Assembly: GCF_026240635.1 (NCBI RefSeq)
Contig: NZ_CP110848.1
Span: 312,501 to 376,500, forward strand
Source of the DNA: Trichothermofontia sichuanensis B231
GTDB taxonomy: Bacteria; Cyanobacteriota; Cyanobacteriia; B231
Direction of reading: 5' to 3'
DNA length: 64,000 nt
Part shown: positions 18,261 to 36,162 of the stretch, in pieces
How positions within the stretch are numbered: position 1 is the stretch's first letter
How the letters are laid out: each line of letters starts with the position of its first letter
Notes under the pieces: generated by a model
What the model saw: the letters and a program-made list of their open reading frames with translations, nothing else
Database searches by the model: none
What the model was told of the DNA's origin: nothing
Program-made: the position numbers and the translations under genes

Positions 18261-18890
18261 TTAAAGATCATAATTTTGTTCAAAAGCAGCACGGGTCATG
18301 GGCTGATCAACCATAATGCCTTCACCCCCCAGTACGTCTAAAGGTTTGCCCGCGATCGTGATCCACACATTGGCGCCCGGATCCAGCGTGGTCGCAGTAT
18401 AGAGCACTTGCGCTAACCGCCCCGACATGGAACTGCTACCCCCCCCGGTCGTGAACTCTGGGGATAAGTCCACATGAACCCCATCCGGCGTAACCTTGAG
18501 GTCCAGCAACTGGGTGCCTGGGGGAATACTGGTGGCCATAGACCCATCCTGGGGACCGCTGAGTAGCTGGGCAAAGGCCGCTTTCAGGGCTGCTTCTCCC
18601 TTCAGCGTTTTAGCGATCGCGATCGGGCTGGGGACGACTTCCAAACGGCTTCCCGTATCACGTAACCAATAGACATCAATCCGTTGCTCCAGAGGAACCG
18701 TCACCTTCGGCGGCGGTGAGCTAGTTACGGTTTCCTCGGGAATCGGTGGGGGAGAGATCTCGCCAGGATTGAACGATCGCCACGTCCACCAGGCCGTTAC
18801 GCCAGCCGTGGCCACCAGGAGCGTCGAAAGGCCAACGAGGAGACCGGTCGGCGGCATCCGGCGAGGTTTGGGAATTTGTTGGTCTTGCAT
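18261..18890 (-). CDS. GerMN-domain (sporulation/spore-germination-like) membrane protein
   Basis: The 209-residue protein has a membrane anchor at about residues 16-36, a Pro/Ser-rich linker (about 42-62) and a GerMN domain (about 70-205). The domain shows ALKAAFAQLLSGPQ, SIPPGTQLLDLKV, VHVDLSPEFTTGGG and QVLYTATTLDPGANVWITI, matching the alpha/beta fold seen in GerM and LpqB-like proteins. Its role in cyanobacteria is not established; an envelope or peptidoglycan-related function is likely. AGGAGG just upstream of the ATG at 18890 supports the start. It is the first of a two-gene envelope pair with the DUF4230 gene. Confidence 0.85.
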   Translation of the reverse strand: MQDQQIPKPRRMPPTGLLVGLSTLLVATAGVTAWWTWRSFNPGEISPPPIPEETVTSSPPPKVTVPLEQRIDVYWLRDTGSRLEVVPSPIAIAKTLKGEAALKAAFAQLLSGPQDGSMATSIPPGTQLLDLKVTPDGVHVDLSPEFTTGGGSSSMSGRLAQVLYTATTLDPGANVWITIAGKPLDVLGGEGIMVDQPMTRAAFEQNYDL

Positions 18891-19483: not shown

Positions 19484-19517
19484 ATGAGTTGACGAAACTC
19501 ATCAGTTTCTTTACATT
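19484..19517 (+). promoter_or_regulatory. Predicted promoter with overlapping operator-like inverted repeat
   Basis: TTGACG (19489-19494) is separated by 17 bases from TACATT (19512-19517), a good fit to sigma-70 -35 and -10 boxes (5/6 and 4/6). The 7-bp inverted repeat ATGAGTT-N5-AACTCAT (19484-19502) covers the -35 box, as a repressor site would. The ATG of the condensation gene is 46 bp past the -10 box, with AAGG as a modest ribosome binding site. Confidence 0.5.
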
Positions 19518-19562
19518 TATTTGCGTTCATTTTTGATTTTTGATAACAAGGTTTTTGTCTAA

Positions 19563-22211
19563 ATGTCAAACGATACTGCTGCTAATGCACCTTCAAATTT
19601 CTGGCACACTGTACAGACGAATGCACGCTTAAGGCAACAATTTCCTGCTATCCAACCTGTATCTCGTCAGGAGCAATTATTACTGTCTTTTCAACAGGAA
19701 AGACTCTGGCGACTTGAACAAATATATCCCGATACATCCGTCTATAATCTTCTACACATTATCCATTTTTATGGTTCTCTCAACCTGAGAGTACTCGAAA
19801 AGAGTCTTCAAGAAATTATCCAACGTCACGAAGTCCTGCGCACTGGTTTTGTAAGCGTTAAAGGGGTACCTTTTCAAACTATTGGCTCTAATAACTTTGT
19901 GAGGTTATCGATTGTAGATCTTACAGGTATCCCTTTACAAGAGCGAGAGCAAGAAGCTAGGAGATTAGCCTTAAAGGAAGCACAAAAACCGTTTGATTTG
20001 ACGCAACAAGGACTATGGCGGTTCCAATTATTGCGCCTTTCTGAGAACGAGCATTGGTTGATAAGGATCATTCATCATATTATTTTTGATGGTTGGTCTC
20101 ATAATGTTTTCATGCGCGAATTAGCAACAATATACACAGCCTTATCTAGTGGGAAATCTTCCCCATTCTCAGACTCAATGCCATTGCTGCAATATGTAGA
20201 TTTTGCTTACACTCAGAGGAAGTGGCCCCAACAAGCAGGATTTGCAACCCAACTAGACTACTGGAAACAGCAATTAAGTGGTAAAATTTCTTCCCTAGAG
20301 TTACCCACTGATAACTCTAATAGTTTGTCAGTATCTACTTATCAAGGTGATTGTCAATCTCTAGTTTTCTCTACAGCTTTAACTAAAGCTATTAAGACCT
20401 TGAGCTATCAGCAAGGAGTTTCTTTGTTCGCGACTTTGCTAACTGCCTTTAAGGTGCTGTTATATGCCTATACCAAGCAAGCGGATATGATCGTGTGTTC
20501 TCCAGTAGCTGGTCGTCACAGGCCTGAGACTAAAAAGCTGATCGGATACTTTAATAATATGGTGTTAATTCGCACTAACCTAGCAGATAATCCTAATTTT
20601 TGCCAATTGTTAAATCAAGTTAGCCAACTTGCCTCGAGTGCCTACGCCAACCAGGATGTCCCCCTCCAAAAACTGGTTGAACTCCCTAACTTGGCAAATA
20701 CAGTATTAACCCGAGTCATGTTTACCTTACAAAATATCCCCAACCCAACCTTTAACTTGGAAAACTTAAAAATTACTTCGGAGTATATTCAAAGGCCAAT
20801 TGCAAACTTTGATTTAGCTTTGTCAATGGAGGAAAAAGGAGAGCAATTAAGTGGCGTACTGCAATACAAAACTGCCTTTTTCAACAGGGGTACTATAAAG
20901 GCAATTTTGGAGGATTTTCAAGTCTTACTAGAAAGTATTGTTATCAATCCAGAGCAGTCATTATCTTCATTATCATTTTTAATCACTGGAGATGATAAAG
21001 GTTTAATCACTGGAGATGATAAAGGGAAAATCTCTTCTAATCAGGATAAAAATTCAGAGCCAGTCCCTGCCCTCTACTCTGCATCTGACAATATCAATTC
21101 CTGCTCTTATCAACCTCCTAGGGATTCTTTAGAACTCCAGGTAACTCAAATCTTGCAAAAGGTTTTGGGCAGCGATCGCCCGATTGGTATTCACGATAAC
21201 CTACTTTCCTTGGGTGTATCTTCCTTATCTATTGCCTTGATTGCTGAGAAAATACAAGGGGTATTCCAGACAGATTTACCCTTAACAGCTATCTTTCAAA
21301 ACTCCACTATTGAAAAAGTGTCAAAGCTACTCAGAGAAAGTAGCTCATTTTCCTTAACTTCCCCCTTGGTCCCTATTCAACCGAATGGTAGTAAACCTCC
21401 TTTATTTCTGTGTGAAGGGGTAGGTATTTATTACAATTTAATTCCCTATCTGGGCAAAGATCAACCTCTTTATGCTTTAATGAGGGACGAAAGTACTACT
21501 TCGCTGCACTTTAATTGTGTAGAAGCTATAGCAACTTACTATTTGCAACACGTTAAAAAAATTCAACCAGAAGGTCCTTATTTCCTGGGAGGTCTGTGTT
21601 TTGGCGGTTTGGTAGCCTTTGAAATGGCGCAGCAAATATACTCGAAAGGTGAGGAGGTGGGTATGCTACTATTGGTGGACACACCAGCGAGGCCTAATGT
21701 TTATAAATTAAAACCCACACCGCTGCGAATGTTAGGACATCTGAGTAATTTGCTCCAATTTGGCCTTCCCTACCTTCGCAAAAAACTAGAGGACAAGAGG
21801 GGCAAGTATTTGCGGTCTAACCATAATTCTTCTGAAACCACCTCACTACCTAGTTTTGGTAGGATTGCAAATACAAACCAAGCGTTTAGAGAGTCTGCTA
21901 ATCGCATTGCTGAAACCTATCAATGTCAAAGCTATCCAGGTTCAGTAACCCTTTTTACGCTGAGCAAGAGATCAGCAATGATCGACGGTTTATTTGATCC
22001 TGCTTTGGGATACATTGAGCCACTTCTTGGCTGGGGTTCTATTGTCAATGGAGAGATAGATGTCTATTACTTTGAAGGAGAACACACTTCAATTTTAAGA
22101 GAACCCTATATTAAGCCTCTTGGAGAACGATTGAGGGCTTGCTTAGAGAAAGCTCAATCTATAAAATCAGTCAAATCAGAGGATACCTGTTTTGGCAAAT
22201 GTTTGTTTTAA
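19563..22211 (+). CDS. NRPS-like protein: condensation - carrier - thioesterase
   Basis: The 882-residue product has no adenylation domain. The condensation domain (about 30-480) has the core start SFQQERLW and the active-site IIHHIIFDGW (His171-His172, Asp176). A linker carries a 24-bp tandem duplication that repeats LITGDDKG. The carrier domain (about 525-595) has SLGVSSLS, with Ser554 at the phosphopantetheine position. The thioesterase (about 610-875) has GGLCFGGLVAFEMA, so the nucleophile is Cys679 instead of Ser; the Asp region LLVDTPA and His841 in GEHTSI complete the triad. The expected role is to join an acyl group to an amine and release the product. It is the first gene of a six-gene AT-rich island. 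Confidence 0.9.
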   Translation: MSNDTAANAPSNFWHTVQTNARLRQQFPAIQPVSRQEQLLLSFQQERLWRLEQIYPDTSVYNLLHIIHFYGSLNLRVLEKSLQEIIQRHEVLRTGFVSVKGVPFQTIGSNNFVRLSIVDLTGIPLQEREQEARRLALKEAQKPFDLTQQGLWRFQLLRLSENEHWLIRIIHHIIFDGWSHNVFMRELATIYTALSSGKSSPFSDSMPLLQYVDFAYTQRKWPQQAGFATQLDYWKQQLSGKISSLELPTDNSNSLSVSTYQGDCQSLVFSTALTKAIKTLSYQQGVSLFATLLTAFKVLLYAYTKQADMIVCSPVAGRHRPETKKLIGYFNNMVLIRTNLADNPNFCQLLNQVSQLASSAYANQDVPLQKLVELPNLANTVLTRVMFTLQNIPNPTFNLENLKITSEYIQRPIANFDLALSMEEKGEQLSGVLQYKTAFFNRGTIKAILEDFQVLLESIVINPEQSLSSLSFLITGDDKGLITGDDKGKISSNQDKNSEPVPALYSASDNINSCSYQPPRDSLELQVTQILQKVLGSDRPIGIHDNLLSLGVSSLSIALIAEKIQGVFQTDLPLTAIFQNSTIEKVSKLLRESSSFSLTSPLVPIQPNGSKPPLFLCEGVGIYYNLIPYLGKDQPLYALMRDESTTSLHFNCVEAIATYYLQHVKKIQPEGPYFLGGLCFGGLVAFEMAQQIYSKGEEVGMLLLVDTPARPNVYKLKPTPLRMLGHLSNLLQFGLPYLRKKLEDKRGKYLRSNHNSSETTSLPSFGRIANTNQAFRESANRIAETYQCQSYPGSVTLFTLSKRSAMIDGLFDPALGYIEPLLGWGSIVNGEIDVYYFEGEHTSILREPYIKPLGERLRACLEKAQSIKSVKSEDTCFGKCLF

Positions 22212-22288
22212 TGACTTTCTAGTAATCTTGTTCAATGTAATCTTGTTCAATTTTAGGAATCTTGTTTAACAATCTTGACATTTAATGG

Positions 22289-22555
22289 ATGACGATTATG
22301 CAATCTACCGAAGAAATAATTCGCAGTTTTATTACTGAGACAATTTTATTTACCCATGAAGAGTATCCATATCCTGATGATGCTTCTCTATTAGAAAATG
22401 GTATTCTTGATTCTATGAATGTGATGGAATTAGTCACATTTTTAGAAGAACAAATGGGACTAGAGATTGCTGATGATGAGATTACTCCAGAAAACTTTGA
22501 CTCAATCAATCAACTCGCAAGATTTGTTAGAAGCAAGCAATCTATGATGACTTAG
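22289..22555 (+). CDS. Free-standing acyl carrier protein
   Basis: The 88-residue acidic protein has the carrier fold. GILDSMNVMELVTFLEEQMG supplies the phosphopantetheine Ser42 in the DSM/DSL motif at the start of helix II. Acidic residues follow, as needed for docking to partner enzymes. Neighbours suggest that the downstream AMP-forming ligase loads an acyl group on it and the upstream condensation domain takes it. The start is either the ATG at 22289 or that at 22298; neither has a strong ribosome binding site. It lies 77 bp after the NRPS-like gene and 29 bp before the ligase. Confidence 0.88.
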   Translation: MTIMQSTEEIIRSFITETILFTHEEYPYPDDASLLENGILDSMNVMELVTFLEEQMGLEIADDEITPENFDSINQLARFVRSKQSMMT

Positions 22556-22584
22556 CTATCCTGTTTGCTTGGAAGGAAATAAAA

Positions 22585-24105
22585 ATGTTAGTACAAGAAT
22601 TTTTAGAGCAAAGCGCGGCTCGTTTACCTCATAAGGTAGCTTTGATTTGTAACAAACAGCGTTTAACTTTTGAAGAAATCGATAAACAAGCTAATCGGTT
22701 GGCCAATGCACTCCAAGCCCAGGGATTAGAACGGAGCGATCGTGTTGCCCTATATCTACCTAATTGTGTTGAATTAGTTATTGCTATATTTGCAGCACTC
22801 AAAGCGGGAGGAATTTTTGTTCCGATTAGCTATACTACTAAACAGCAAAAATTAACTTATATTTTAAATAACTGTCAAGCAAAAATTTTGATCACAAGTG
22901 GGCGACAAGCGTCGATAGTAGAGAATTTAGTTGAGAAAGTTACTTCCTTAAAAACCATTGTTCTGACTTCATCTATCGATAAGCCAAGATTAAAAAACTA
23001 TCTTAATTACGAAGATATTTATATCAATTATTCAGAAGAAGCGCCTAAAAAGATTAATATTGATCTTGATCTTGCTTGTCTAATTTACACATCTGGCAGC
23101 ACAGGTGATCCCAAAGGAGTCATGTGCGATCATAGTAACGTGGTTTTCGCTGCTAATTCGATTATTCAGTATCTAGGTAATACGGAAACAGATGTTGTAC
23201 TAGGATTATTACCTTTGTCTTTTGACTATGGTCTTTATCAATTGCTTATGACCTTTAAATTTGGCGGTACATTGGTCTTGGAACAGGGATTTACCTTCCC
23301 AGCAGTCATTCTTAAACGTATTCAAGAAGAAAAAATTACTGGTTTTCCTGGTGTACCAACAATTTACTCTATGCTACTTAGCATGGATATTGATGCTTAC
23401 AATCTATCTAGCCTACGCTATTTAACAAATACCGCAGCCGCTTTACCGCCTTCCCATATCACTGCAATTCGGGACAAATTTCCCTGGGCTAAATTATTTT
23501 CTATGTATGGATTAACAGAAACTAAACGAACTCTCTACTTACCCCCTGAAGAGTTAGATAAACGCCCTGATTCTGTTGGAATTGCGATTCCTGGGACAGA
23601 GGTCTGGATTGAAGATGAAGCGGGGCAAAGATTAGGGGTAGGTCAAGTTGGAGAGCTTGTGGTGCGGGGTCGTCACGTTATGCGAGGTTATTGGAATGAT
23701 CCATCTAGGACGGCAATCAGGTTCCGTAGTAGTCCTGCCGGCGATCGGCTGTGTTATACCGGAGACCTCTTTAAGATGGATGCAGAGGGGTTCCTGTATT
23801 TCGTGGCGCGTAAGGATGACATTATCAAAAGCCGAGGAGAAAAGGTTGCTCCCAAAGAAGTCGAAAACGTCCTCTATGCCCTAGAAGGGGTCAAAGAAGT
23901 GGCCGTAATCGGTGTTAGTGATCCTATTCTTGGTCAAGCGATAAAAGCATTCATTGTCTTAGGGGAAGTACAAATGACAGAAACAGATGTTTTACGTTAC
24001 TGTCGCACCCATTTAGAAGATTTTATGATTCCGAAATACATTGAATTTTGTTCAGAATTGCCTAAAACTTCAACTGGAAAAATTAAAAAGATCGATCTGA
24101 ATTAA
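22585..24105 (+). CDS. AMP-forming acyl ligase / adenylation enzyme
   Basis: The 506-residue ANL-superfamily enzyme activates a carboxylic acid with ATP and passes it to CoA or, here more likely, to the carrier protein encoded just upstream. Motifs are in order: IYTSGSTGDPKGVM (about 168-181), FSMYGLTE (about 310), LCYTGDLFKMD (A7), KSRGEKVAPKEVE (A8) and PKTSTGKIKK with the catalytic Lys (A10). It resembles the acyl-CoA ligase family found with exosortase-A loci, though no exosortase gene is here. The substrate cannot be read by eye. AAGGA precedes the ATG. It is tightly linked to both neighbours. Confidence 0.9.
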   Translation: MLVQEFLEQSAARLPHKVALICNKQRLTFEEIDKQANRLANALQAQGLERSDRVALYLPNCVELVIAIFAALKAGGIFVPISYTTKQQKLTYILNNCQAKILITSGRQASIVENLVEKVTSLKTIVLTSSIDKPRLKNYLNYEDIYINYSEEAPKKINIDLDLACLIYTSGSTGDPKGVMCDHSNVVFAANSIIQYLGNTETDVVLGLLPLSFDYGLYQLLMTFKFGGTLVLEQGFTFPAVILKRIQEEKITGFPGVPTIYSMLLSMDIDAYNLSSLRYLTNTAAALPPSHITAIRDKFPWAKLFSMYGLTETKRTLYLPPEELDKRPDSVGIAIPGTEVWIEDEAGQRLGVGQVGELVVRGRHVMRGYWNDPSRTAIRFRSSPAGDRLCYTGDLFKMDAEGFLYFVARKDDIIKSRGEKVAPKEVENVLYALEGVKEVAVIGVSDPILGQAIKAFIVLGEVQMTETDVLRYCRTHLEDFMIPKYIEFCSELPKTSTGKIKKIDLN

Positions 24106-24125
24106 CTAAAAGCACAGGAGTTTTC

Positions 24126-26096
24126 ATGTGTGGAATTGTCGGTATTGTCAATTTAAAAGAGCCACAATTTGTACCAGAAGATTTATTGCGGCAGATGTTG
24201 GCAGCGATTCGTCATCGTGGGCCAGATGAGTTCGGTATTTACCGAGATGAGTGGGCTAGCCTGGGTAATGCTCGTCTGAGTATTGTTGATTTGGGAGGTG
24301 GACAACAACCCATTGGTAATGAGGATGGGAGTCTATGGATTGTTTTTAACGGTGAAATTTTCAACTATTTGGAATTACGTCCTATCCTAGAAGCTGAAGG
24401 TCACCGCTTTCGTACAGATTGTGATACAGAGGTCATTCTACATTTATACGAAAAATACGGGCCAAGCTGTTTGAACTATTTGAATGGACAGTTTGCGATC
24501 GCGATTTGGGACAATTGGAATCGTAGTTTGTTTCTGGCTCGCGATCGCTTGGGAATTTGCCCCCTCTTTTATTCAACAGCTAATGGTCAATTAGTATTTG
24601 GCTCGGAAATAAAAACCTTACTAATACATCCTCAGATACAGGCAGAAATTGATCCGGATAGCCTAGCTCAGATCTTTACCTTTTGGAGTGTTTTAGTTCC
24701 TCGTAGTATCTTTAAGAAGATTTACAATCTGCCGCCGGCGCACTATTTGCTGATTCAGGGAGGGCAGTTGCAAGTCCATCCCTATTGGGAACCTGATTTC
24801 ACTATTCCGGCTACACCGGAGCGCACTACTGAGGAATACCTAGAGGAATTTGAGTGCCTGCTGATTGATGCTACCTTACTACGTCTACGGGCTGATGTCC
24901 CCGTCGGGGCTTATCTGAGTGGCGGTTTAGACTCTTCTACAACCACAGCTATTATCCGTCAGTATACATCCAATTCTCTAGACACCTTCTCGATCGCCTT
25001 TTCCGATCCGACATTTGATGAGAGCCAATTTCAACAGTATATGGCTGCCTTTCTAGGGACGGAGCACCAGGTCATTGACTGTACTCAAGCTGATATTGGC
25101 CAAGCCTTCCCGCAAATGCTGTGGCATACTGAAATGCCTACACTGCGAACTGCCCCTGCCCCCATGTTTCTGCTTTCCCGACTGGTTAGGGATCATAACT
25201 TAAAAGTGGTGATTACGGGCGAGGGAGCCGATGAGTTCTTAGGCGGTTATGATATTTTTAAGGAAATGGCAATTCGCCGGTTTTGGGCAAAACAACCCCA
25301 CTCAACGAGGCGACCTCAACTGTTAAAACGCTTGTATCCAGAAATTGCCCGTTTAAGTCATTCTAGCGAGGCTTTTTTAACTGCATTTTTCAAACAGGAT
25401 CTTACTGATATAGATTCTCCTATCTATTCCCATCTCATTCGTTGGTCGAATACCGCAAAACTCCATCGATTTTTGCGGCAACGACCGGGAGAGTCTATTA
25501 GACAATGGGCAGAAGATTTAGTGCCGCTACCAGCTCGCTTCCGGCAATGGTCACCCTTGGGACAAGCACAATACCTGGAAATTGTCACCTTCCTCAGTCC
25601 CTACTTACTTTGTTCCCAGGGCGATCGAGTGGCAATGGCACACTCTGTCGAAGGGCGTTTCCCTTTCCTAGACTATCGCCTAGTAGAATTTGCCAACCGC
25701 TTGCCTCCTCAACTAAAGCTACGAGGCTTGAAGGAAAAATGGCTACTTCGCCAGTTGGCTAGCAAACGACTTCCTCCTGAAATTTGGCAGCGTCGTAAAC
25801 GTCCCTATCGTGCTCCTATCCACCGTAGTTTTTTTGGACCCGATGCTCCCACTTATGTTAACGAGTTACTCTCACCTCCAGCTTTAGAGGAATCAGGACT
25901 GTTTAATCCCCTTGCAGTTAGTCAACTGGTCAACAAAGCCCAAAAAGCACAACAATTGAGTGAAGTAGAAGATATGGCCATTGCTGGCCTTATCTCTACC
26001 CAACTGATCTATCAACAATTTATCAAGGCTTTCCCTAGCCAGTTTCCGACACTGGGTGCAAAAGATCGGGTCAAAGTTGTGAATCGAGGAACTTAG
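24126..26096 (+). CDS. asnB: Asparagine synthetase-like glutamine-dependent amidotransferase
   Basis: The 656-residue protein has a class II glutaminase domain starting MCGIVGIVN, with Cys2 as the nucleophile exposed after Met removal. RHRGPDEFG, RLSIVDLGGGQQP and NGEIFNYLELR follow. The synthetase domain (about 215-580) has the pyrophosphatase loop SGGLDSS (about 265-271) and TGEGADEFLGGYD. All catalytic elements are intact. AsnB relatives make asparagine but also amidate other carboxylates or close beta-lactam-type rings in natural-product loci. Its place 20 bp after an acyl ligase argues for a tailoring role; housekeeping asparagine synthesis is the alternative. AGGAG precedes the start, and the next gene begins 3 bp after the stop. 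Confidence 0.9.
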   Translation: MCGIVGIVNLKEPQFVPEDLLRQMLAAIRHRGPDEFGIYRDEWASLGNARLSIVDLGGGQQPIGNEDGSLWIVFNGEIFNYLELRPILEAEGHRFRTDCDTEVILHLYEKYGPSCLNYLNGQFAIAIWDNWNRSLFLARDRLGICPLFYSTANGQLVFGSEIKTLLIHPQIQAEIDPDSLAQIFTFWSVLVPRSIFKKIYNLPPAHYLLIQGGQLQVHPYWEPDFTIPATPERTTEEYLEEFECLLIDATLLRLRADVPVGAYLSGGLDSSTTTAIIRQYTSNSLDTFSIAFSDPTFDESQFQQYMAAFLGTEHQVIDCTQADIGQAFPQMLWHTEMPTLRTAPAPMFLLSRLVRDHNLKVVITGEGADEFLGGYDIFKEMAIRRFWAKQPHSTRRPQLLKRLYPEIARLSHSSEAFLTAFFKQDLTDIDSPIYSHLIRWSNTAKLHRFLRQRPGESIRQWAEDLVPLPARFRQWSPLGQAQYLEIVTFLSPYLLCSQGDRVAMAHSVEGRFPFLDYRLVEFANRLPPQLKLRGLKEKWLLRQLASKRLPPEIWQRRKRPYRAPIHRSFFGPDAPTYVNELLSPPALEESGLFNPLAVSQLVNKAQKAQQLSEVEDMAIAGLISTQLIYQQFIKAFPSQFPTLGAKDRVKVVNRGT

Positions 26097-26099
26097 TCG

Positions 26100-27113
26100 A
26101 TGATAGTAAACCCAGAAACTGCTCCCCCGTTTGGTCGTCATTCTCTGGATCTTGACGTTGAGAAAGAGACGGAACGCCTGGTTACTCAGTTGCGACAGGC
26201 TATTTATCATACTTTACACCGCCAGGGAGCAGTTTTAGGGATTAGTGGTGGCATTGACTCTTCTGTTGTCTTAGCACTCTGTGTTAGAGCTTTGGGGCCA
26301 GATCGAATTGTGGCTTTGAAACTTCCTGAAGGTGAATCTGACCCTGAAAGTTTGACCCTAGCTCAGATGGTTGCTGATCACTATGGTGTTTGCACCGTCA
26401 CGGAAAATATCTCTGCGGCCTTGGAAGGATTTGGCTGTTATCGTCGTCGTAATGCAGCTATTCAACAATTTTTTCCTGACTTTGGGCCTGGTTGGGGGGC
26501 AAAAATTACGCTTCCAGGTAGCCTTTTAGAGCAAAAAACTCTCAATGTTTTCTATCTGACTGTCACTAGCCCAACCGGTCAAGTTTTGACGAAACGTTTA
26601 CCCCCAAAACAGTACCTACAGATTGTTGCTGCCTCTAACTTTAAACAACGATCGCGGATGGCCATGCTTTACTATCATGCCGAACTCCACAATTATGCAG
26701 TCATTGGCACAGCAAATAAAAATGAACATTTACTTGGTTTTTTTGTTAAGCATGGGGATGCTGGCATTGATGTCAATCCTATTGAACACCTCTTTAAAAC
26801 CCAAGTTTATCAACTAGCGCGTTATTTAGGCGTTCCTGAACCTATCCAGAAACGAACACCTACTTCAGATACTTATCCAGGGGGAAGTAGCCAGGAAGAG
26901 TTCTTTTTCCGCCTACCTTTCGAGATTTTAGATACCATTTGGTTAGGATATGAACGAGGTGTTCCTCAGGAGTTAATTGCCCAGGGATTGAATCTTACAA
27001 CTGAGCAAGTAGGACGGGTTATCGACGATATTATCCGCAAGCAACGGACAACGCTTTACCTCAGAACTCCAGTTATTAATATGGGAAATGAGTTAGCACG
27101 AGAACTTATTTAG
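26100..27113 (+). CDS. NAD synthase-like ATP pyrophosphatase (amidase domain absent)
   Basis: The 337-residue protein is an N-type ATP pyrophosphatase of the NadE fold. The PP-loop GISGGIDSSVV (Ser49-Ser55) binds ATP. GTANKNEHLLGFFVKHGDAG and DVNPIEHLFKTQV are the NAD synthase core, and RTPTSDTYPGGSSQEEFFF is the substrate loop. There is no nitrilase-type glutaminase domain, so it would use free ammonia or ammonia from a partner. An insert at about residues 125-175 (FPDFGPGWGAKITLPG and after) is longer than in standard NadE. Location 3 bp after an AsnB-like gene suggests paired amide formation in one pathway; plain NAD synthesis is less likely in this setting. Confidence 0.85.
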   Translation: MIVNPETAPPFGRHSLDLDVEKETERLVTQLRQAIYHTLHRQGAVLGISGGIDSSVVLALCVRALGPDRIVALKLPEGESDPESLTLAQMVADHYGVCTVTENISAALEGFGCYRRRNAAIQQFFPDFGPGWGAKITLPGSLLEQKTLNVFYLTVTSPTGQVLTKRLPPKQYLQIVAASNFKQRSRMAMLYYHAELHNYAVIGTANKNEHLLGFFVKHGDAGIDVNPIEHLFKTQVYQLARYLGVPEPIQKRTPTSDTYPGGSSQEEFFFRLPFEILDTIWLGYERGVPQELIAQGLNLTTEQVGRVIDDIIRKQRTTLYLRTPVINMGNELARELI

Positions 27114-27156
27114 ATTCTACTGGTTCTACCTCTATAGATTCTACTGCTGAAACACG

Positions 27157-28071
27157 ATGAAGGCGACAATCCACATAAAAAAGACCTTGTTGTTGACTGT
27201 GTTGTTGACTGTGCTTTTTATAGTTTCCCTCTTGTCCCTACTTGTCTTCAGCAGTGCCAAGGTATCGGTCAAGGATAAAACGATGCTGCCCCTTAACTCT
27301 TCGAGCTTACAGAGTATTTCTGAAACTGCTTGGCAAAGTCTCGCAACCAAAAAGATTATTTTTGGACATCAGTCTGTGGGTTTTAATATCATCGAAGGTA
27401 TGGAAGATTTGAGGCAAGAAAATTGCTTTATTGATCTCAAGATTATTGCTAACACTAAACCTTGGGAAGTAAAAACGCCTGGTTTTGTCCATTTTCAAAT
27501 TGGAGAAAATACTCAGCCACAGACTAAGATAAATGACTTTGTCCGAGTTGTAGAAACTACTGAACAACAGGGTAGTATTGATCTGGCTTTCTTCAAATTT
27601 TGCTATGTAGATATAGGCCCTGATATGAATATCAGCGAGGTTTTTGAACAATACCATCAGGCTATGCAACGGTTAATTCAAGCCTTCCCAAAGACGACTT
27701 TTATCCATGTTACAGTTCCCTTGGAATCAGAAGCGGGTAGTATTAAAAGATGGGCTAAGCAGGTCAAAAATTTTCTTGAGCGGCTTGCACATCAGGGAAA
27801 AAGTCATTATTCTAGTAATCTCTATAGGCATCAATTCAATCAGTTAATCAGGCAAGCGTACCAGGAGAACGCCCCTGTTTTCGATCTTGCTCAAATAGAA
27901 TCGACTTTTCCTGATGGTCACCAACAGATTTTTTCTGTGAATGGGAAGCAATACTGGTCTTTGGCCCCAGACTATACGGATGATGGCGGTCATCTGAATC
28001 AACTGGGGCGGCGGGTCGTCGCTGAAAAGTTACTGATTTTCTTGGCGCGACTTAGCGATCGTGACCCATAG
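27157..28071 (+). CDS. Membrane-anchored SGNH-hydrolase-like protein
   Basis: The 304-residue product starts with a basic tip and a strong hydrophobic helix (about residues 9-32), a signal anchor or signal peptide. The extracytoplasmic domain begins with KKIIFGHQSVGFNIIEGM, where the usual GDSL Ser block is altered to GHQSVG. It ends with DDGGHLNQLGRRVVAEK, giving the Asp276-x-x-His279 pair of SGNH enzymes. It could act as an esterase, deacylase or acyltransferase on the exported product of the cluster. It is the last gene on the strand, 43 bp after the NAD-synthase-like gene. No strong ribosome binding site is seen. Confidence 0.75.
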   Translation: MKATIHIKKTLLLTVLLTVLFIVSLLSLLVFSSAKVSVKDKTMLPLNSSSLQSISETAWQSLATKKIIFGHQSVGFNIIEGMEDLRQENCFIDLKIIANTKPWEVKTPGFVHFQIGENTQPQTKINDFVRVVETTEQQGSIDLAFFKFCYVDIGPDMNISEVFEQYHQAMQRLIQAFPKTTFIHVTVPLESEAGSIKRWAKQVKNFLERLAHQGKSHYSSNLYRHQFNQLIRQAYQENAPVFDLAQIESTFPDGHQQIFSVNGKQYWSLAPDYTDDGGHLNQLGRRVVAEKLLIFLARLSDRDP

Positions 28072-28374: not shown

Positions 28375-31300
28375 TCAACCCGTATTACGCATTCCGGCTG
28401 CAATACCGTTAATGGTTAGATGGGCACCGCGCAAAAGTTCGCTCTGGCTATAGCGCGATCGCATCACTGTGCCACTTGTCGTTTGGGCTTGGTATTGGCG
28501 CAAGCGCTTCAGCAGCGAGACCTGGAGAAGCCCCAAGGGAACGATCGAACCATTGCGCAGTTGAATTGAGGCTTGCAGTTCGGGGTCACCATCAAGCAAG
28601 CGTTGATGCTCTGTAATTGCTAGGACCAGATCGCGCGTCAGATGATACTCCCTAGAAATTTGCTCAAACAGATGTTCAAAGCGCCCCCGATCCTCCGGTC
28701 GCGACAACTCCCGCACATAGTGGTGAGCAATTTGCAGATCCACCTTCGAGAGGGTCATTTCGACCTTAGAAATCGCCATCTTGAAGAATGGCCACTTGTA
28801 GTAGAAATAACGCAGCAAGCTCATGTGCTCATCCGGTGCCTCGTTGAGAAAGTCCCGTAGAGCTGTTCCCACACCGTACCATGAAGGTAGCAAGAAGCGG
28901 GTTTGCGTCCAGCTAAACACCCAAGGGATAGCCCGTAGGTTTGCCATATCCCGTTTCCCCGATCGCCGCGAGGGTCGCGAACTAATTTGCAGCTTGCTAA
29001 TTTCCTCGATCGGCGTCACCTGATGGAAGAAATCAATAAAATCTGGTTGCTCGTAGATCAACTGGCGATAGTGCTGCCGCGATCGGGCCGCCAACTCCTC
29101 CATGATTTCATTCCAGGGTTCGATATTGTCAAACCCCGTGCGCAGCAAGCTCGCCTGAATCACCGCTGTAGTGATATTTTCCAGGTTATACAACGCCAGT
29201 TCTGGCAGCGAATACTTGGAGGCTAGTACTTCCCCCTGCTCAGTAATCTTAATGCGGCCACTGATACTGCGTCCCGGCTGGGCCAAGATCGCCTCATAGG
29301 CAGGTCCCCCGCCGCGACCGACTGACCCCCCGCGACCGTGGAAAATCCGCAGGGCAATGCCGTGCTCCTCGGCGATCGCCTGCAACGCCTTCTGGGCCTT
29401 ATGAATTTCCCAATTACTGCTGAGGAAACCGGAATCCTTATTACTGTCGGAGTAGCCCAGCATTACCTCTTGCAGCGGGGTTACCGTGGGATTGGCTTGA
29501 GCCATCGCCTCATAGCCCCCCGCCAGCAAGGCTCGGTAGAAGGGTAACTCAAACAACTGTTGCATAATCGCCGGTGCCCGCCGTAGATCCTCCACCGTCT
29601 CAAACAAGGGTACTACCTGAAGGCGACTGATCCCTGTGGCTGGATCATATAACCCCGCTTCCTTGGCCAGCAGCAACACCTCCAGCAGATTACTCACGGA
29701 ATGGCTCATGCTGATGATGTAGGTTTGGCACATCTCCTGGCCAAACTCCTGTTGCAACTGGTTAGTCATCCGGAAGGTTTCGATGATCTCGCAAGTCCGG
29801 GCCGAAAAAGGCAGATTCGTTGGGATCAGAGGCCGCCGGGTCTTGATTTCCTGTATCAACCAATCACAGCGTTCACGCTCCGTCATTTCGGTATAGGGTT
29901 TCGGCAAGATCTGGAGATAGGCGGTGATTTCATCGATCGCATTGCCGTGCTGGGAGCTTTCCTGCCGGAGGTCAAGTTGGGCCAAGTTAAAGCCGTAGAT
30001 CTCCACCTGACGGATCAGCGTTTCCAATTCCTCACAGGTCAAGCCCGTCTGCACCAGACTGCTCTGGATCAACCGTAGCTCCGCCAGAAATTCATCACCC
30101 GATCGATACAAATTCGTCGTCGGACAATCCGGTGCCGTGCGCTCCATCATGGCGCTATTGTCTAAACACAGGTTGCGGGTGCGGGTATTTTTCAGACGCT
30201 CCAGCACATAGGTCAGCTTCAGGCGATAGGGTTCCTGACGATACCGAATCGCCTTAGCCTCGTAGATTTCTGGCATCTGGATACGATCCTGTTCCAGGGC
30301 TTCGAGCAGTTCCGGCAATACCTGACTCCAGTGCAGAGACGGACTCAGCAGCCCAATTAGCTTCTCGACCGATTGGATGTATTTATCCAACACGAGCCGG
30401 CGTTGATAACAGGCCGTACGCCAGGTCACCTGGGGGGTTACCGAGGGATTCCCGTCACGATCGGCCCCCACCCAAGACCCAAATTTGCAGAAATTAGTCC
30501 GAGGCGGACGCAGATAGGGAAATACACTGTGCAGAGCGCGATTGAAGCGATCGAAGAGTTTGGGCACCGCATCAAACAACACCTCCTGGAAATAGTGCAA
30601 GGTGTAGTCCACCTCATCCAGCACCGATGGTTTGAATTGATGGAGTTCATCCGTCCGCCACCAGAGCCGCACCTCTGACATCAGTTTTTGACGGATCGTG
30701 TCTGCTTCCCAATCCGCCATGGGCGACTGACTCCCCGCTTCAATCAGATCCAACTGACTCAGGAGTCCAGCAATCCGCCGTTGCTTACTGCGGATCGTGT
30801 GGCGCACAATTTCCGTCGGGTGAGCAGTGAACACCATGCGCACATCCAGATCATCAATCAAGCGCTGGATATGCTGGGGCGGAACATTCAACCGCTTCAG
30901 TTCTGGGAACAGCCATTGCAGCGTTGCCGGTCCCTTGCGGGGTGCCCCCGACACCAGCAAACTCTTCTCTAACAAGCTGGCATGGAACGAGGTCTCTACC
31001 GTCGTAGACCCTTCAGCCGGCGATCGGGCGGGTCCCCGCACACTGGCTAGGGCTTGATCCACACTCGTGCGCAAATGGGTTGCCCCCAACCCTCCTCGCA
31101 CAGCATCCTGCACACTCTGGTTATAATTGTCGCGATATTGCTGCTGTTGCTGCCGTTGTTCGTAGTGCTGCTCAACAATGTTAATCAGTTGGAAGTAGAG
31201 GGCAAAGGCACGGGTCAGCCGAATCGCTTCCTCAAGATCCAACTGTTCAATGACCCGCAACACTTGCGACTCCACAAAATTCGGCGCCTGTCCTTCCGGT

Positions 31301-31698
31301 GAGCAGAGTTGACGCAGGGTGATGAGTAAATCCACTAAGTCCTGACCACACTCCTCACACAAAACCGCCTGCCAGATTTCTTCCGTTAACCGCAGACGAC
31401 GATTGAGCAGGAGTTTGTCAGCAGCCCCGATATTGGTCGTAACCCTCGCGAAGTCACCCGTCGTTTGCATGGGGGGCCGATGCGGCGGGGGTTGGGAGGG
31501 GTGGCGATAGGCCACCCGTGTCGTATCGCCTCTGTCAGCGTCTGATTCACTCCTGTGCGGATTAGGAGGATTCCCGGCAGCCGGGCGCTGGCTCCCGCTC
31601 GCTGAGGTGGGGATCAGCGTGTCCGCTGACTTGGGGGCCACTGCTGGTGTGACTAAGGGGTCCAAGGCATCATTCGCGGGATTGAGAGGTGAACTCAT
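28375..31698 (-). CDS. ppc: Phosphoenolpyruvate carboxylase
   Basis: This enzyme carboxylates PEP to oxaloacetate, the main anaplerotic reaction that feeds amino-acid synthesis in cyanobacteria. The 1,107-residue product has [20 protein letters not shown] with catalytic His293, [32 protein letters not shown], and the C-terminal [14 protein letters not shown]. The first about 76 residues are a Pro/Ser/Ala-rich extension with no similarity to standard PEPC, so the product is 80-100 residues longer than many. Met77 (MQTTGDF) is an in-frame alternative start. A Gln-rich stretch (QQQQQ) lies near residue 185. The plant-type phosphorylation Ser is absent, as in other bacteria. It is transcribed alone. 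Confidence 0.96.
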
Positions 31699-32211: not shown

Positions 32212-32568
32212 AGAGGTAGCTCCTGTGGGGCTGGGGGCTAGAGGGGGATCTCAGAGTAGGGGAAGGCGGGAGACTGCGTCACTGGCGCAGGACGACGCGC
32301 TCCAACAGGGTCATTGACCATATCCAGTGATATCCAGAGTTCCACTGCGGCTATTATCGATGTTGCCCGCTTGGTCAGGCAAGGGGTTAAACCGATTGAA
32401 CGGTGCAGATCCCCCAGCAATGGGGTAGACTGTCAGCCAACCAATCTGGGTAGGGTCTGCCGCCCCCTCCCCGGTCAGCAATTGAGGTGAGAGGGCGGAG
32501 AAAGCAGTAGCAAGATTGGGGCAGCGGGAATCGCGCACGGATGCTTGGTGCGATTAGGGATAGCAGTG
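32212..32568. other. 357-bp non-coding stretch before the DUF1574-type gene
   Basis: No ORF with plausible protein features was found in either strand. The promoters of the small membrane protein (leftward) and the large gene (rightward) should lie here. No clear box could be picked. Confidence 0.35.
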
Positions 32569-35500
32569 ATGTTGAAACTTGAGGATCAGACCCGTCCACA
32601 CAATTTGTCGCCCCTAGCCCGTTGGCTACGCCACACGGTGGCCCAGCCGCAGGTGCAGTTGAAGCTACGCCTGCGGGGCAATAATCTCCATTTGCTCTGT
32701 GAAGGAAATCCCTGCCCAGATGTGGCCATCGTGACCGCTCGCCTGATCCAGGGCCTGACCCAAACGTCCCTAGCGAGCCTCTTGCCCGCTGACCATCCCC
32801 CCATTTATCAGGTGCTGCTTTACGGTCGCACCACAGGCAGCCAGCGCCCTGCCTGGACGGAACTGATTTACCTCAATCAACTCGATCGCTACCTAGAAGA
32901 CTTAGAAAACCGCTCTGAGCGACCGGAACTCTGGGATGACACGACTTCTGCGACCTACGTCGATCGCCCCCTAGGGCGCGAACCCTTAACCCTCGTGTCG
33001 GCTCCGACCGTTTCCCAGACACTGCCGGTGACGAGTACGGCGATCGTCGTTTCTAATCAGAGTTTGGCGCGTCAAGGCGATCCTGACGCGATCGCCCGGT
33101 ACTTGAGTGAAACCCTGAGTGCGCTGGGGGTCAGTGTGACGCCGAAGGTACGCACTATCCGGGTGAGCAACCCCACCCCCTCTCACCAGGCCCAGGCGAT
33201 TTTTCTCCACCCCGATCGCACCCAACGGCTGTGTATCCATTGCGAATCGACCTATCGGGTTGATCCCGCGGTGGTGGCCGAAGCGATCGCGACCCAATTG
33301 CGGGAGTTAAACCTATCGGGCTATCGGGATGCTCTGGTATTCAGCCAGGTGAGGGGGGAAAGTCAAGCGGAATGGGTCCTCCGGGTTGATCTTACCCCGC
33401 CAGCGGAGATGCTGCGGGAGTGGGCACGCTGGGGGGATCTGGTTGCGCTGACCCAGATTGTGAGTCAAGCCCTAGGCATGGCCACCACAGATGTGTCCAT
33501 CCTGCAACAGGAGACCACACTGTACATTTTTTGTAAACAAGGTGCAGAGAACCCAGCCAGAGAGGCCCAGACGGTGGGCGATCGTCCCAGCTACGAAGCG
33601 ATCCCTACTGCGGAAGTGACTGAGAGCGGGCGGCCTCTGCCCAAGCGCCCCGCCCCCCCCGTCAGCCCCGCCCCGGATCAAGCAACTACTAAAGCGATCC
33701 TGACTACCCTACTAACTGACCTAGCGCCCCAAGGGGCCAAAGCTGCCGCCATCTATGGCCTTGCGGCCAACACCACGTTGCCTGCGGCGGGGACGGAACC
33801 AGCCCTCAGTACCATTCCCGTCTGGGTCGATTGGATCGATCTGCCAGGGGCGGTGCATGAAGCCCTAGCGGTTTCAACCCGAACCCTGGCGGAGCAGGGC
33901 GACTTATTGGCGATCGTGGTCCTCCTCACTCGTCAGTTAAACCCCGACTTGGAGCAGCAATTGGCCACCGGGGGAACCCGCGTCCAGGTCTTGCGCAAGG
34001 GGGATTTGATCCATGTTATGACCGACGCCCCCCGCTGTCCTCGGCAGACGCAAGTGGGGCCGCCGATCGCCAGCTTTATCCGCCAGTTACGATTGGGGGG
34101 GATATCGGGGGTACGGGTCTATGGCCGCCGTGCCGGCCAAAAGCGCCCCCGGTGGTGCTATGGTGTGGATTTTGTGCCCCGCAATCGTCTGGTTCCGGAG
34201 GCAACCCCCGAATTTGCCGCCTCCGATGCCTATGTGGGGGATTTATTGGCCTCGGCGGGGGATCTGTCCCTGGCGGGACCTGCGACCGGGGCTTTGTCTG
34301 ATTTGGCAGCCTTGCCCACCCTTGGAACGGTTGCCACTCAGGTTTGCCAGACCCTGATTCAACGCCTGCAACAAACGCTGATCCAGTGGCAACTCTGCGT
34401 TCCTAGGGATGCGGTTGCCACCCCGCCTCTCTCCTTAGCCCCCCGCCAAACCCTAGCGGTAGCAGTGGTATGGGGAGCGTTGGGGCTGGTGTTGACGGTC
34501 CAGATGGACTGGTTACTCGGACGTGCCCTGCAAACTCAAACCCAAGTGCCGGGTGCGATCGCAGCCATTGTCGATTCCCCCAATACCCCCCTGTCATCCC
34601 CCAAGCCGTCGGTGGGTTCCTGGCCAGCGGCCACTGGGGGGGATCCCCCCCTATCGGCTGCTGCCGGGACTGTGCAGACGGAGCCAGGGAGTATTCCCTT
34701 GTCCAACCCAGAGCAAGCAACGACCCCAGCGGCAGGATTATCTTCAACCCCCGATCGGCTGTCCTCAACCGGCAAGTTTGATGGAAACAGCGGGAGCCTT
34801 GCCGATGAGATAGCTGCACCGATCGACCCCCTGGCTGGGGTTACCCTAAATCCTGCCCAAACTCCCATAGACAGCCCTGCCTTCAATCCCTCCGGATTTA
34901 CCCGTGGCAGTTATGGAGAGGGGATGACAGAATCTGCTTTCCCTGATCCTGAGGCGACCCCAGCCTCTGATCGGGGAACAGCCCTCCCCGCCAGTGCGCT
35001 TCAGGATACCCTCAAGGCCACAGCGGTGATCGCCGCTGCGCCGACAGACTACCCCAGCTTCGGTGCCCAGCAGTTGGATCAAAAACTGGCCCTTTATCGC
35101 TATCATCTGCAAACGGCAGGTCCCCCGGATGTTTTAATTATGGGTAGTTCGCGTGCCCTACGGGGAGTTGATCCGACTCAACTTCAGCAGGCATTGCAGC
35201 GACCGGATCGTCCCCCGTTGCGGGTGTTTAACTTTGGCGTCAATGGGGCCACAGCCCAGGTTGTTGATCTCATCGTCCGACAATTGCTGAGGCCGGAGGA
35301 GTTGCCTCGGCTGATTATTTGGGCAGATGGGGCACGGGCATTCAACAGTGGTCGAGTGGATATTACCTTCAATGCGATCGCGGTATCCGATGGCTATCGA
35401 CAGTTACAGGCGGGAACTCTGCCCCCGCTGACGGCTCCCTCAAACTCGACGCTCACTGGGGCAACCCCAGCCCCAGTCTCCCTACCGCCCCAATCCCTGG

Positions 35501-36162
35501 CCGAGAGCTACCAGCAGGCCAATGCCTGGTTGAGTGAGCGCTTGGCCCAGGCATCGCAGATTTATCGCGATCGCTACCAACTCAAACATTGGCTGGGTCG
35601 TCAGCTCAACGCGATCGCCGCTGGGGTATTCCCCAGCCCCAACCCGACGGTCACTACCTTACCCGGACAGCCTCCCCCCAGTGCCGAAGGGGCAGCAATG
35701 GATGCCTTTGTCAAGCAGACCAAGGTGGATATCAACGGCTTTTTACCCCTGTCAGTACAGTTCAACCCGGCAACCTACTACCAGCAATACGCTCGGGTAT
35801 CGGGTAGCTACGACAGTGACTATGCAAACTTTACGCTGGTGGGCGAGCAACACGATGCCCTCCTGAATCTCCTGAGTTGGACCCGTGAACAGGGAGTGGA
35901 GGTTGTCTTCCTGAATCTACCCCTGACCGATACCTACCTCGATCCCGTGCGCATGGATTATGAGCGTGAATTTCAAGCCTATTTGGCCCAACAAGCATTA
36001 ACGACAGGGCTGCTCACGCGGGACTGGAGCCAAATTTGGTTGCAGGAGTACCATTATTTTTCGGACCCCAGCCACCTCAACCGCTATGGTGCCTATGCGA
36101 TTTCGCAACGGCTCGCCCAAGATCCCCGCATTTCCTGGCCATCTGCCCCCCGTGGAGAGTAG
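32569..36162 (+). CDS. Large DUF1574 / SGNH-like protein with long N-terminal region
   Basis: From the ATG at 32569 the protein is 1,197 residues. The N-terminal half (about 1-560) holds two similar alpha/beta units with NLHLLCEGNPCPD and RQGDLL-type blocks and repeated YGRRAGQKRPRW-like phrases (YGRTTGSQRPAW at about residue 100 and YGRRAGQKRPRW at about 525). One membrane helix lies near residue 630-650, followed by a Pro/Ser-rich linker. The C-terminal domain (about 830-1197) has DVLIMGSSRALRGVDP, FNFGVNGATAQVVDL, IIWADGARAFNSG and FSDPSHLNRYGAYAIS, the SGNH-like DUF1574 signature with Asp-x-x-His. It may modify an envelope polysaccharide or glycan. Function is unproven. Confidence 0.8.
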   Translation: MLKLEDQTRPHNLSPLARWLRHTVAQPQVQLKLRLRGNNLHLLCEGNPCPDVAIVTARLIQGLTQTSLASLLPADHPPIYQVLLYGRTTGSQRPAWTELIYLNQLDRYLEDLENRSERPELWDDTTSATYVDRPLGREPLTLVSAPTVSQTLPVTSTAIVVSNQSLARQGDPDAIARYLSETLSALGVSVTPKVRTIRVSNPTPSHQAQAIFLHPDRTQRLCIHCESTYRVDPAVVAEAIATQLRELNLSGYRDALVFSQVRGESQAEWVLRVDLTPPAEMLREWARWGDLVALTQIVSQALGMATTDVSILQQETTLYIFCKQGAENPAREAQTVGDRPSYEAIPTAEVTESGRPLPKRPAPPVSPAPDQATTKAILTTLLTDLAPQGAKAAAIYGLAANTTLPAAGTEPALSTIPVWVDWIDLPGAVHEALAVSTRTLAEQGDLLAIVVLLTRQLNPDLEQQLATGGTRVQVLRKGDLIHVMTDAPRCPRQTQVGPPIASFIRQLRLGGISGVRVYGRRAGQKRPRWCYGVDFVPRNRLVPEATPEFAASDAYVGDLLASAGDLSLAGPATGALSDLAALPTLGTVATQVCQTLIQRLQQTLIQWQLCVPRDAVATPPLSLAPRQTLAVAVVWGALGLVLTVQMDWLLGRALQTQTQVPGAIAAIVDSPNTPLSSPKPSVGSWPAATGGDPPLSAAAGTVQTEPGSIPLSNPEQATTPAAGLSSTPDRLSSTGKFDGNSGSLADEIAAPIDPLAGVTLNPAQTPIDSPAFNPSGFTRGSYGEGMTESAFPDPEATPASDRGTALPASALQDTLKATAVIAAAPTDYPSFGAQQLDQKLALYRYHLQTAGPPDVLIMGSSRALRGVDPTQLQQALQRPDRPPLRVFNFGVNGATAQVVDLIVRQLLRPEELPRLIIWADGARAFNSGRVDITFNAIAVSDGYRQLQAGTLPPLTAPSNSTLTGATPAPVSLPPQSLAESYQQANAWLSERLAQASQIYRDRYQLKHWLGRQLNAIAAGVFPSPNPTVTTLPGQPPPSAEGAAMDAFVKQTKVDINGFLPLSVQFNPATYYQQYARVSGSYDSDYANFTLVGEQHDALLNLLSWTREQGVEVVFLNLPLTDTYLDPVRMDYEREFQAYLAQQALTTGLLTRDWSQIWLQEYHYFSDPSHLNRYGAYAISQRLAQDPRISWPSAPRGE

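Follow-up and report, generated by a model that had tools for sequence, protein, structure and literature searches.

The window, by which we mean the whole 64-kb stretch of DNA analysed here (312-376 kb of the host genome), carries six open reading frames on the + strand at 19563-28071, with intergenic gaps of 77, 29, 20, 3, and 43 bp in order. They encode a condensation-PCP-thioesterase (C-PCP-TE) protein, a free acyl carrier protein (ACP), an AMP ligase, an AsnB-like and a NadE-like nitrogen enzyme, and an SGNH protein. The island lies between a - strand gene (18261-18890) and a gene that, judged by eye, is PEP carboxylase-like (28375-31698), and the wider flanks resemble, again by eye, housekeeping genes such as those for chorismate synthase, CTP synthase, and biotin carboxylase; no dedicated exporter gene was found within the island. 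GC is 35-47% at 19-28 kb and 49-63% in all remaining 1-kb steps of the window, GC3 is 0.26-0.41 in the island genes compared with 0.61-0.67 in four adjacent genes, and the density of HIP1 sites is 0.33/kb compared with 0.79-0.95/kb. The sequence-only reading had described six genes on one strand, 3-77 bp apart, that are AT-rich, deviant in codon use, and poor in HIP1 relative to their neighbours. The ORF coordinates and these base-composition measures bear this out, and its domain calls, including a condensation protein without an adenylation domain and a NadE without a glutaminase, agree with Pfam and NCBIfam. The six-gene island is a real feature rather than a chance arrangement.

Proteins of the island

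The C-PCP-TE protein (882 aa, 19563-22211), assigned by Pfam and by alignment with its counterparts at loci L006, L018, L032, and L007, has the intact condensation (HHIIFDG) and PCP (LGVSS) motifs of a nonribosomal peptide synthetase (NRPS), and the nearest solved relatives of its condensation domain are chain-elongation domains, not starter domains. Pfam detected no adenylation domain in this protein, and one that would load the PCP in the manner of an NRPS is absent genome-wide: PF00668 matches only this protein in the whole host genome, and none of the five PF00501 AMP-binding proteins is fused to a condensation domain. The other four have sizes typical of acyl-ACP, acetyl-CoA, fatty-acyl-CoA, and OSB ligases. 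With one condensation domain and five AMP-binding proteins in the genome, the ligase of the island is therefore the likeliest loader if the PCP is loaded at all; otherwise, the acceptor would be a free amine. The thioesterase nucleophile is Cys (GGLCFGG), as had been read from the sequence, but it is not a defining feature of the protein, because the alignment places Ser there in two of three comparable homologues. Release as a beta-lactone or beta-lactam by a Cys thioesterase (cf. obafluorin and SulM) was considered and dropped, since the Cys is unconserved in the cyanobacterial homologues.

The ACP (88 aa, 22289-22555) matches PF00550 with 25 bits and, in an alignment of ~35 related ACPs, has its phosphopantetheine site in GILDSMNV. 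The acyl/aminoacyl-AMP ligase (506 aa, 22585-24105), assigned by Pfam, NCBIfam, and its pocket residues, matches TIGR03098 best, below threshold (500.5 vs a cut-off of 592.35 bits). Together they support the earlier proposal that this pair supplies the acyl part. The pocket, whose positions were assigned by motif against adenylation domains, reads DYYPTTMRT, and DYYPTTMR(T/V) is near-invariant in ~24 loci across cyanobacteria, Chloroflexota, and Bacteroidota. It has Asp at the amino-acid-recognition position (the amino-group site of amino acid adenylation domains) and an Arg deep in the pocket that could bind a second carboxylate, and this combination suggests, although it proves nothing, that the substrate is an amino dicarboxylic acid. 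In Longilinea and some Bacteroidota, the usual ligase gives way to another type whose pocket reads C[FY]SAxAMRL or similar, with C or V instead of the pocket Asp (L046, L013, L033, L027, L042, L044, L045, and L050).

The AsnB-like glutamine-dependent amidotransferase (656 aa, 24126-26096) consists, as in AsnB, of an N-terminal glutaminase with Cys2 and a synthetase domain with the motif SGGLDSS; it scores 512.8 bits with TIGR01536, above the cut-off of 267.1, and 451 bits with TIGR03108, below the cut-off of 816.9. Its nearest solved structure is the hydroxyamidotransferase 7ylz, a member of the AsnB family that, by its name, adds nitrogen to a carboxyl group other than that of aspartate. The 7ylz pathway differs from that of the window, and we know of no ACP, ligase, or NadE neighbours for it. 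Linkage to the ACP and ligase argues for a substrate other than free aspartate in the window as well. The only other AsnB of the host (L053:1387-3192; G000:C1 about 1,010 kb), which adjoins a glycosyltransferase-like gene, is broken by an in-frame stop into ORFs of 214 and 386 aa.

The adjacent protein (337 aa, 26100-27113) shares with the NH3-dependent NAD+ synthetase NadE the ATP pyrophosphatase motif SGGxDS and the fold (AlphaFold2 pLDDT 90.3; Z 28.4, rmsd 3.5, and 252 aligned residues against 2e18), and at 431 bits it passes the NF002048 cut-off of 313. Unlike NadE, its family has a conserved insert of ~55 residues, and RTPTSDTY.GG..QEEFFF and KQ.TT.YLR take the place of the substrate-side motif K.PSADLW.GQTDE.ELG and the canonical C-terminus; this contrast was drawn against three canonical NadE sequences, and alignments with PDB entries show the same. 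A separate full-length NadE is present in 12 of the 14 host genomes tested, including that of the window. The insert, the replaced motifs, and the extra NadE make the name NAD+ synthase doubtful, and judging from its motifs, the protein is probably a specialised paralogue, an ammonia-dependent amide synthetase that has been misnamed.

The last protein (304 aa, 27157-28071) has an N-terminal membrane helix and scores 22.0 bits, just under the Pfam cut-off of 23.6. Structure prediction nevertheless gives it a clear SGNH fold, in line with the sequence-only call: the AlphaFold2 model (pLDDT 85.7) matches SGNH structures, including sialate O-acetylesterase, with Z of about 15, and the Ser and Asp-His motifs are present (FGHQS and DGGH). 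It may be an acyl hydrolase or transferase, and its gene is kept in four cyanobacterial loci and also within the L030 cluster. Elsewhere in the window, a 1205-aa ORF with a TTG start (32545-36162) has a C-terminal part that resembles another SGNH-type domain (GSSRALRG).

A four-gene cassette and its neighbourhoods

Searching whole genomes with the NadE-like protein and then mapping the six island proteins showed that the ACP, ligase, AsnB-like, and NadE-like genes form a core cassette in Chloroflexota, Bacteroidota, Calditrichota, Alphaproteobacteria (Sinorhizobium and Azospirillum), and others. Among 27 well-flanked NadE-like loci, the ligase was found within 8 kb in 26, the ACP in 25, the AsnB-like gene in 24, and all four genes together in 23; the AsnB- and NadE-like homologues are thus not always alone in housekeeping positions, a pattern that the sequence-only reading had named as speaking against it. 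The cassette is more widespread than the island alone implied and occurs in many bacterial phyla. The usual order is ACP-ligase-AsnB-NadE in Chloroflexota, and ACP-AsnB-NadE-ligase is frequent in Bacteroidota; one locus (L047:7088-10960) has a single ACP-ligase pair between two divergent NadE-like genes. Many cassettes in Chloroflexota and other phyla lie amid surface-polysaccharide genes for glycosyltransferases, NDP-sugar enzymes, and a flippase or O-antigen ligase, and further neighbours encode Wzt-like export and hexapeptide, GNAT, or Acyl_transf_3 acyltransferases. The Azospirillum cassette is preceded by glycosyltransferases and a polysaccharide deacetylase and followed by a GNAT gene, and the Sinorhizobium cassettes (AsnB-ACP-ligase-NadE) adjoin minCDE, with no glycan genes nearby.

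Condensation domains adjoin cassette genes in three groups, namely four cyanobacteria, L019, and L032. At L019, a C-A-PCP gene follows NadE. The Acidobacteriota locus L032 (9478-13578) has the order ACP-NadE-C-PCP-TE, with Cys in the thioesterase and a Wzx-like flippase and glycosyltransferases adjacent, and neither AsnB nor ligase was found nearby. In the three other cyanobacteria, loci L006 and L018 combine the cassette with both the C-PCP-TE and the SGNH gene, arranged as in the window; at L007, the SGNH gene is present together with a divergent condensation gene that is incomplete at the contig end. The six-gene cluster consists of two parts, the four-gene cassette and the C-PCP-TE and SGNH genes. 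The co-directional biosynthetic cluster proposed earlier therefore stands as a cluster but not as primarily an NRPS one, because its core is a pre-existing cassette that many phyla have with no condensation domain attached, mostly within polysaccharide loci. Our literature search found no description of the four- or six-gene set and no report of a product.

Within a phylum sample of 386 genomes, the NadE-like gene occurs only in this genome, which alone represents its order, and in three genomes of another class. In a tree of the concatenated NadE-like and AsnB-like proteins, built with a quick method, the four cyanobacterial rows form one clade (SH-aLRT 100) nested inside a mostly Chloroflexota clade (SH-aLRT 100). 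This nesting supports horizontal transfer, and together with the deviating GC, GC3, and HIP1 density it upholds what had been suspected from composition. The low GC of the island is not intrinsic to these genes, since the L006 and L007 cassettes equal their flanks in GC; the donor therefore likely had a lower GC than the host and was perhaps another cyanobacterium. Derivation of the cyanobacterial copies from a Chloroflexota-type cassette belongs to the overall explanation given below, and we rate the two jointly at slightly better than an even chance. On a Mesorhizobium plasmid (L077:1-17000), the cassette has IS66 and IS481 transposases in its vicinity, which is consistent with mobility.

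The Sinorhizobium meliloti cassette

The S. meliloti cassette lies at about 1.45 Mb of pSymB, and its ACP has IIDSTGVLEL, i.e., a DST motif. A scan of pSymB with PF00550 missed this ACP, so that SMb20651 could not be picked out by elimination on PF00550 alone, and the two other PP-binding matches on pSymB have a DSL motif and no ligase nearby. As the record carries no locus tags, SMb20650 and SMb20651 were assigned by elimination together with the DST motif; because this motif occurs only in the cassette ACP among the pSymB candidates, these sequences make it very likely that the cassette ligase and ACP are SMb20650 and SMb20651. Speaking against this assignment, the number SMb20650 is not an obvious fit for a position beside minCDE. 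The pair reportedly goes back to work by Ramos-Vega in 2009. This S. meliloti locus resembles the window in combining an ACP and ligase with AsnB and NadE genes and differs in having no condensation, thioesterase, or SGNH genes. Researchers have found that SMb20650 is co-transcribed with the ACP gene SMb20651, that SMb20651 becomes acylated when the two are co-expressed in E. coli, and that SMb20650 neither rescues fadD mutants nor replaces FadD (PMC7232532), and SMb20651 has been described as an ACP with a DST motif and unknown function (PMC12391972). In neither paper are the genes for AsnB and NadE presented as partners of SMb20650/SMb20651 (PMC7232532; PMC12391972).

Proposed pathway and competing explanations

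The explanation that we favour on balance is that the core locus is a mobile four-gene cassette that builds an amidated thioester, of an acyl or possibly an aminoacyl group, on its own carrier protein. A carboxylic acid would be adenylated by the ligase and loaded on the ACP, a step that has been reported for what are probably the S. meliloti orthologues. Judging from their folds and motifs, AsnB and, separately, the NadE-like enzyme would then use ATP to activate carboxylate (or amide) groups and transfer nitrogen to them, with glutamine or ammonia as the source. In most phyla, the finished acyl group would pass to a surface glycan, probably via a neighbouring acyltransferase, and in these cyanobacteria it would be transferred via the condensation domain of C-PCP-TE and released by the thioesterase, after which the membrane-anchored SGNH enzyme may work on the exported product. 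In favour of this explanation are the recurrence of the cassette and its glycan neighbours across phyla, the condensation domains next to cassette genes in three groups, the near-invariant ligase pocket, the separate NadE of most hosts, the S. meliloti acylation result, and the nesting in the tree. Counting against it are the lack of an adenylation domain for the PCP, the elongation-type relatives of the condensation domain, the ligases that lack the pocket Asp, the indirect assignment of the S. meliloti genes, and the Sinorhizobium cassettes with no glycan neighbours. The nearest proposed precedent for amidation on a carrier is, in our best reading, the glutarimide malonamyl-ACP route, in which an AsnB homologue is proposed to convert malonyl-ACP to malonamyl-ACP (PMC7756379). 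The loading sets of these clusters (AT, ACP, and AsnB homologue; SmdFGH, ChxBCD, LtmHCD, and MgsHCD) likewise have an AsnB homologue thought to amidate a carboxyl-tipped acyl-ACP, but they load by a malonyl acyltransferase rather than an AMP ligase, have no NadE-like enzyme described, and feed a PKS. We also speculate that AsnB and then the NadE-like enzyme act on the same ACP-bound substrate, taking an acid to an amide and on to a diamide, amidine, or nitrile, with this previously undescribed acyl group put on surface glycans in several phyla and redirected into a condensation-domain product in cyanobacteria; in this specific form, the scheme is unlikely.

The island could instead be a small NRPS-like natural product cluster, in which the acyl group on the ACP and an amine are joined by the condensation domain, the thioesterase releases the product, the amidotransferases make terminal amides, and a small molecule is secreted. 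The co-directional C-PCP-TE, ACP, ligase, and SGNH genes in the window, L006, and L018 fit such a cluster, as do the housekeeping rather than glycan genes in the flanks and the two phosphopantetheinyl transferases of the host, one of which is Sfp-sized. It is nevertheless a doubtful, if possible, account of a core that many phyla carry without a condensation domain, often in glycan loci, and of an island that lacks both an adenylation domain for the PCP and a dedicated exporter gene. It is very unlikely that the NadE-like and AsnB-like proteins are a redundant NAD+ synthase and asparagine synthase of the usual kind that happen to be encoded beside an acyl-ACP pair, although both exceed the NCBI cut-offs for those names and the other AsnB of the host is broken. 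Their linkage to the ACP and ligase is conserved across phyla, most hosts have a NadE of their own, and the insert is conserved while the substrate motif is replaced; the same observations disfavour a housekeeping role of the NadE-like gene.

The TIGR03098 and TIGR03108 matches recall the ACP, acyl ligase, and amidotransferase set associated with exosortase A (XrtA/PEP-CTERM), where a homologous ligase and AsnB-type amidotransferase of these families are tied to exopolysaccharide systems. We rejected membership of the cassette in this set as highly improbable: the window ligase and AsnB score below the curated cut-offs, as do those of L046 and L076 (ligase) and L078 (AsnB), no exosortase match was found in 8 of the 14 cassette-bearing genomes, and in none of the 14 does one lie next to the cassette. 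The exosortase of the host itself maps to C1:2997 kb, a long way from the window. The cassette also has an added NadE-like gene, and to our knowledge no such gene occurs in XrtA sets.

If the favoured explanation of a carrier-bound amidation cassette is true, the names 'NAD+ synthase', 'asparagine synthase', and 'acyl-CoA ligase' have masked a pathway of four genes that is spread over many phyla and found even in well-studied Sinorhizobium strains. Those annotations would then be wrong in many genomes, and a new carrier-bound acyl modification would await discovery, for which S. meliloti would offer a direct genetic test case through gene deletion.
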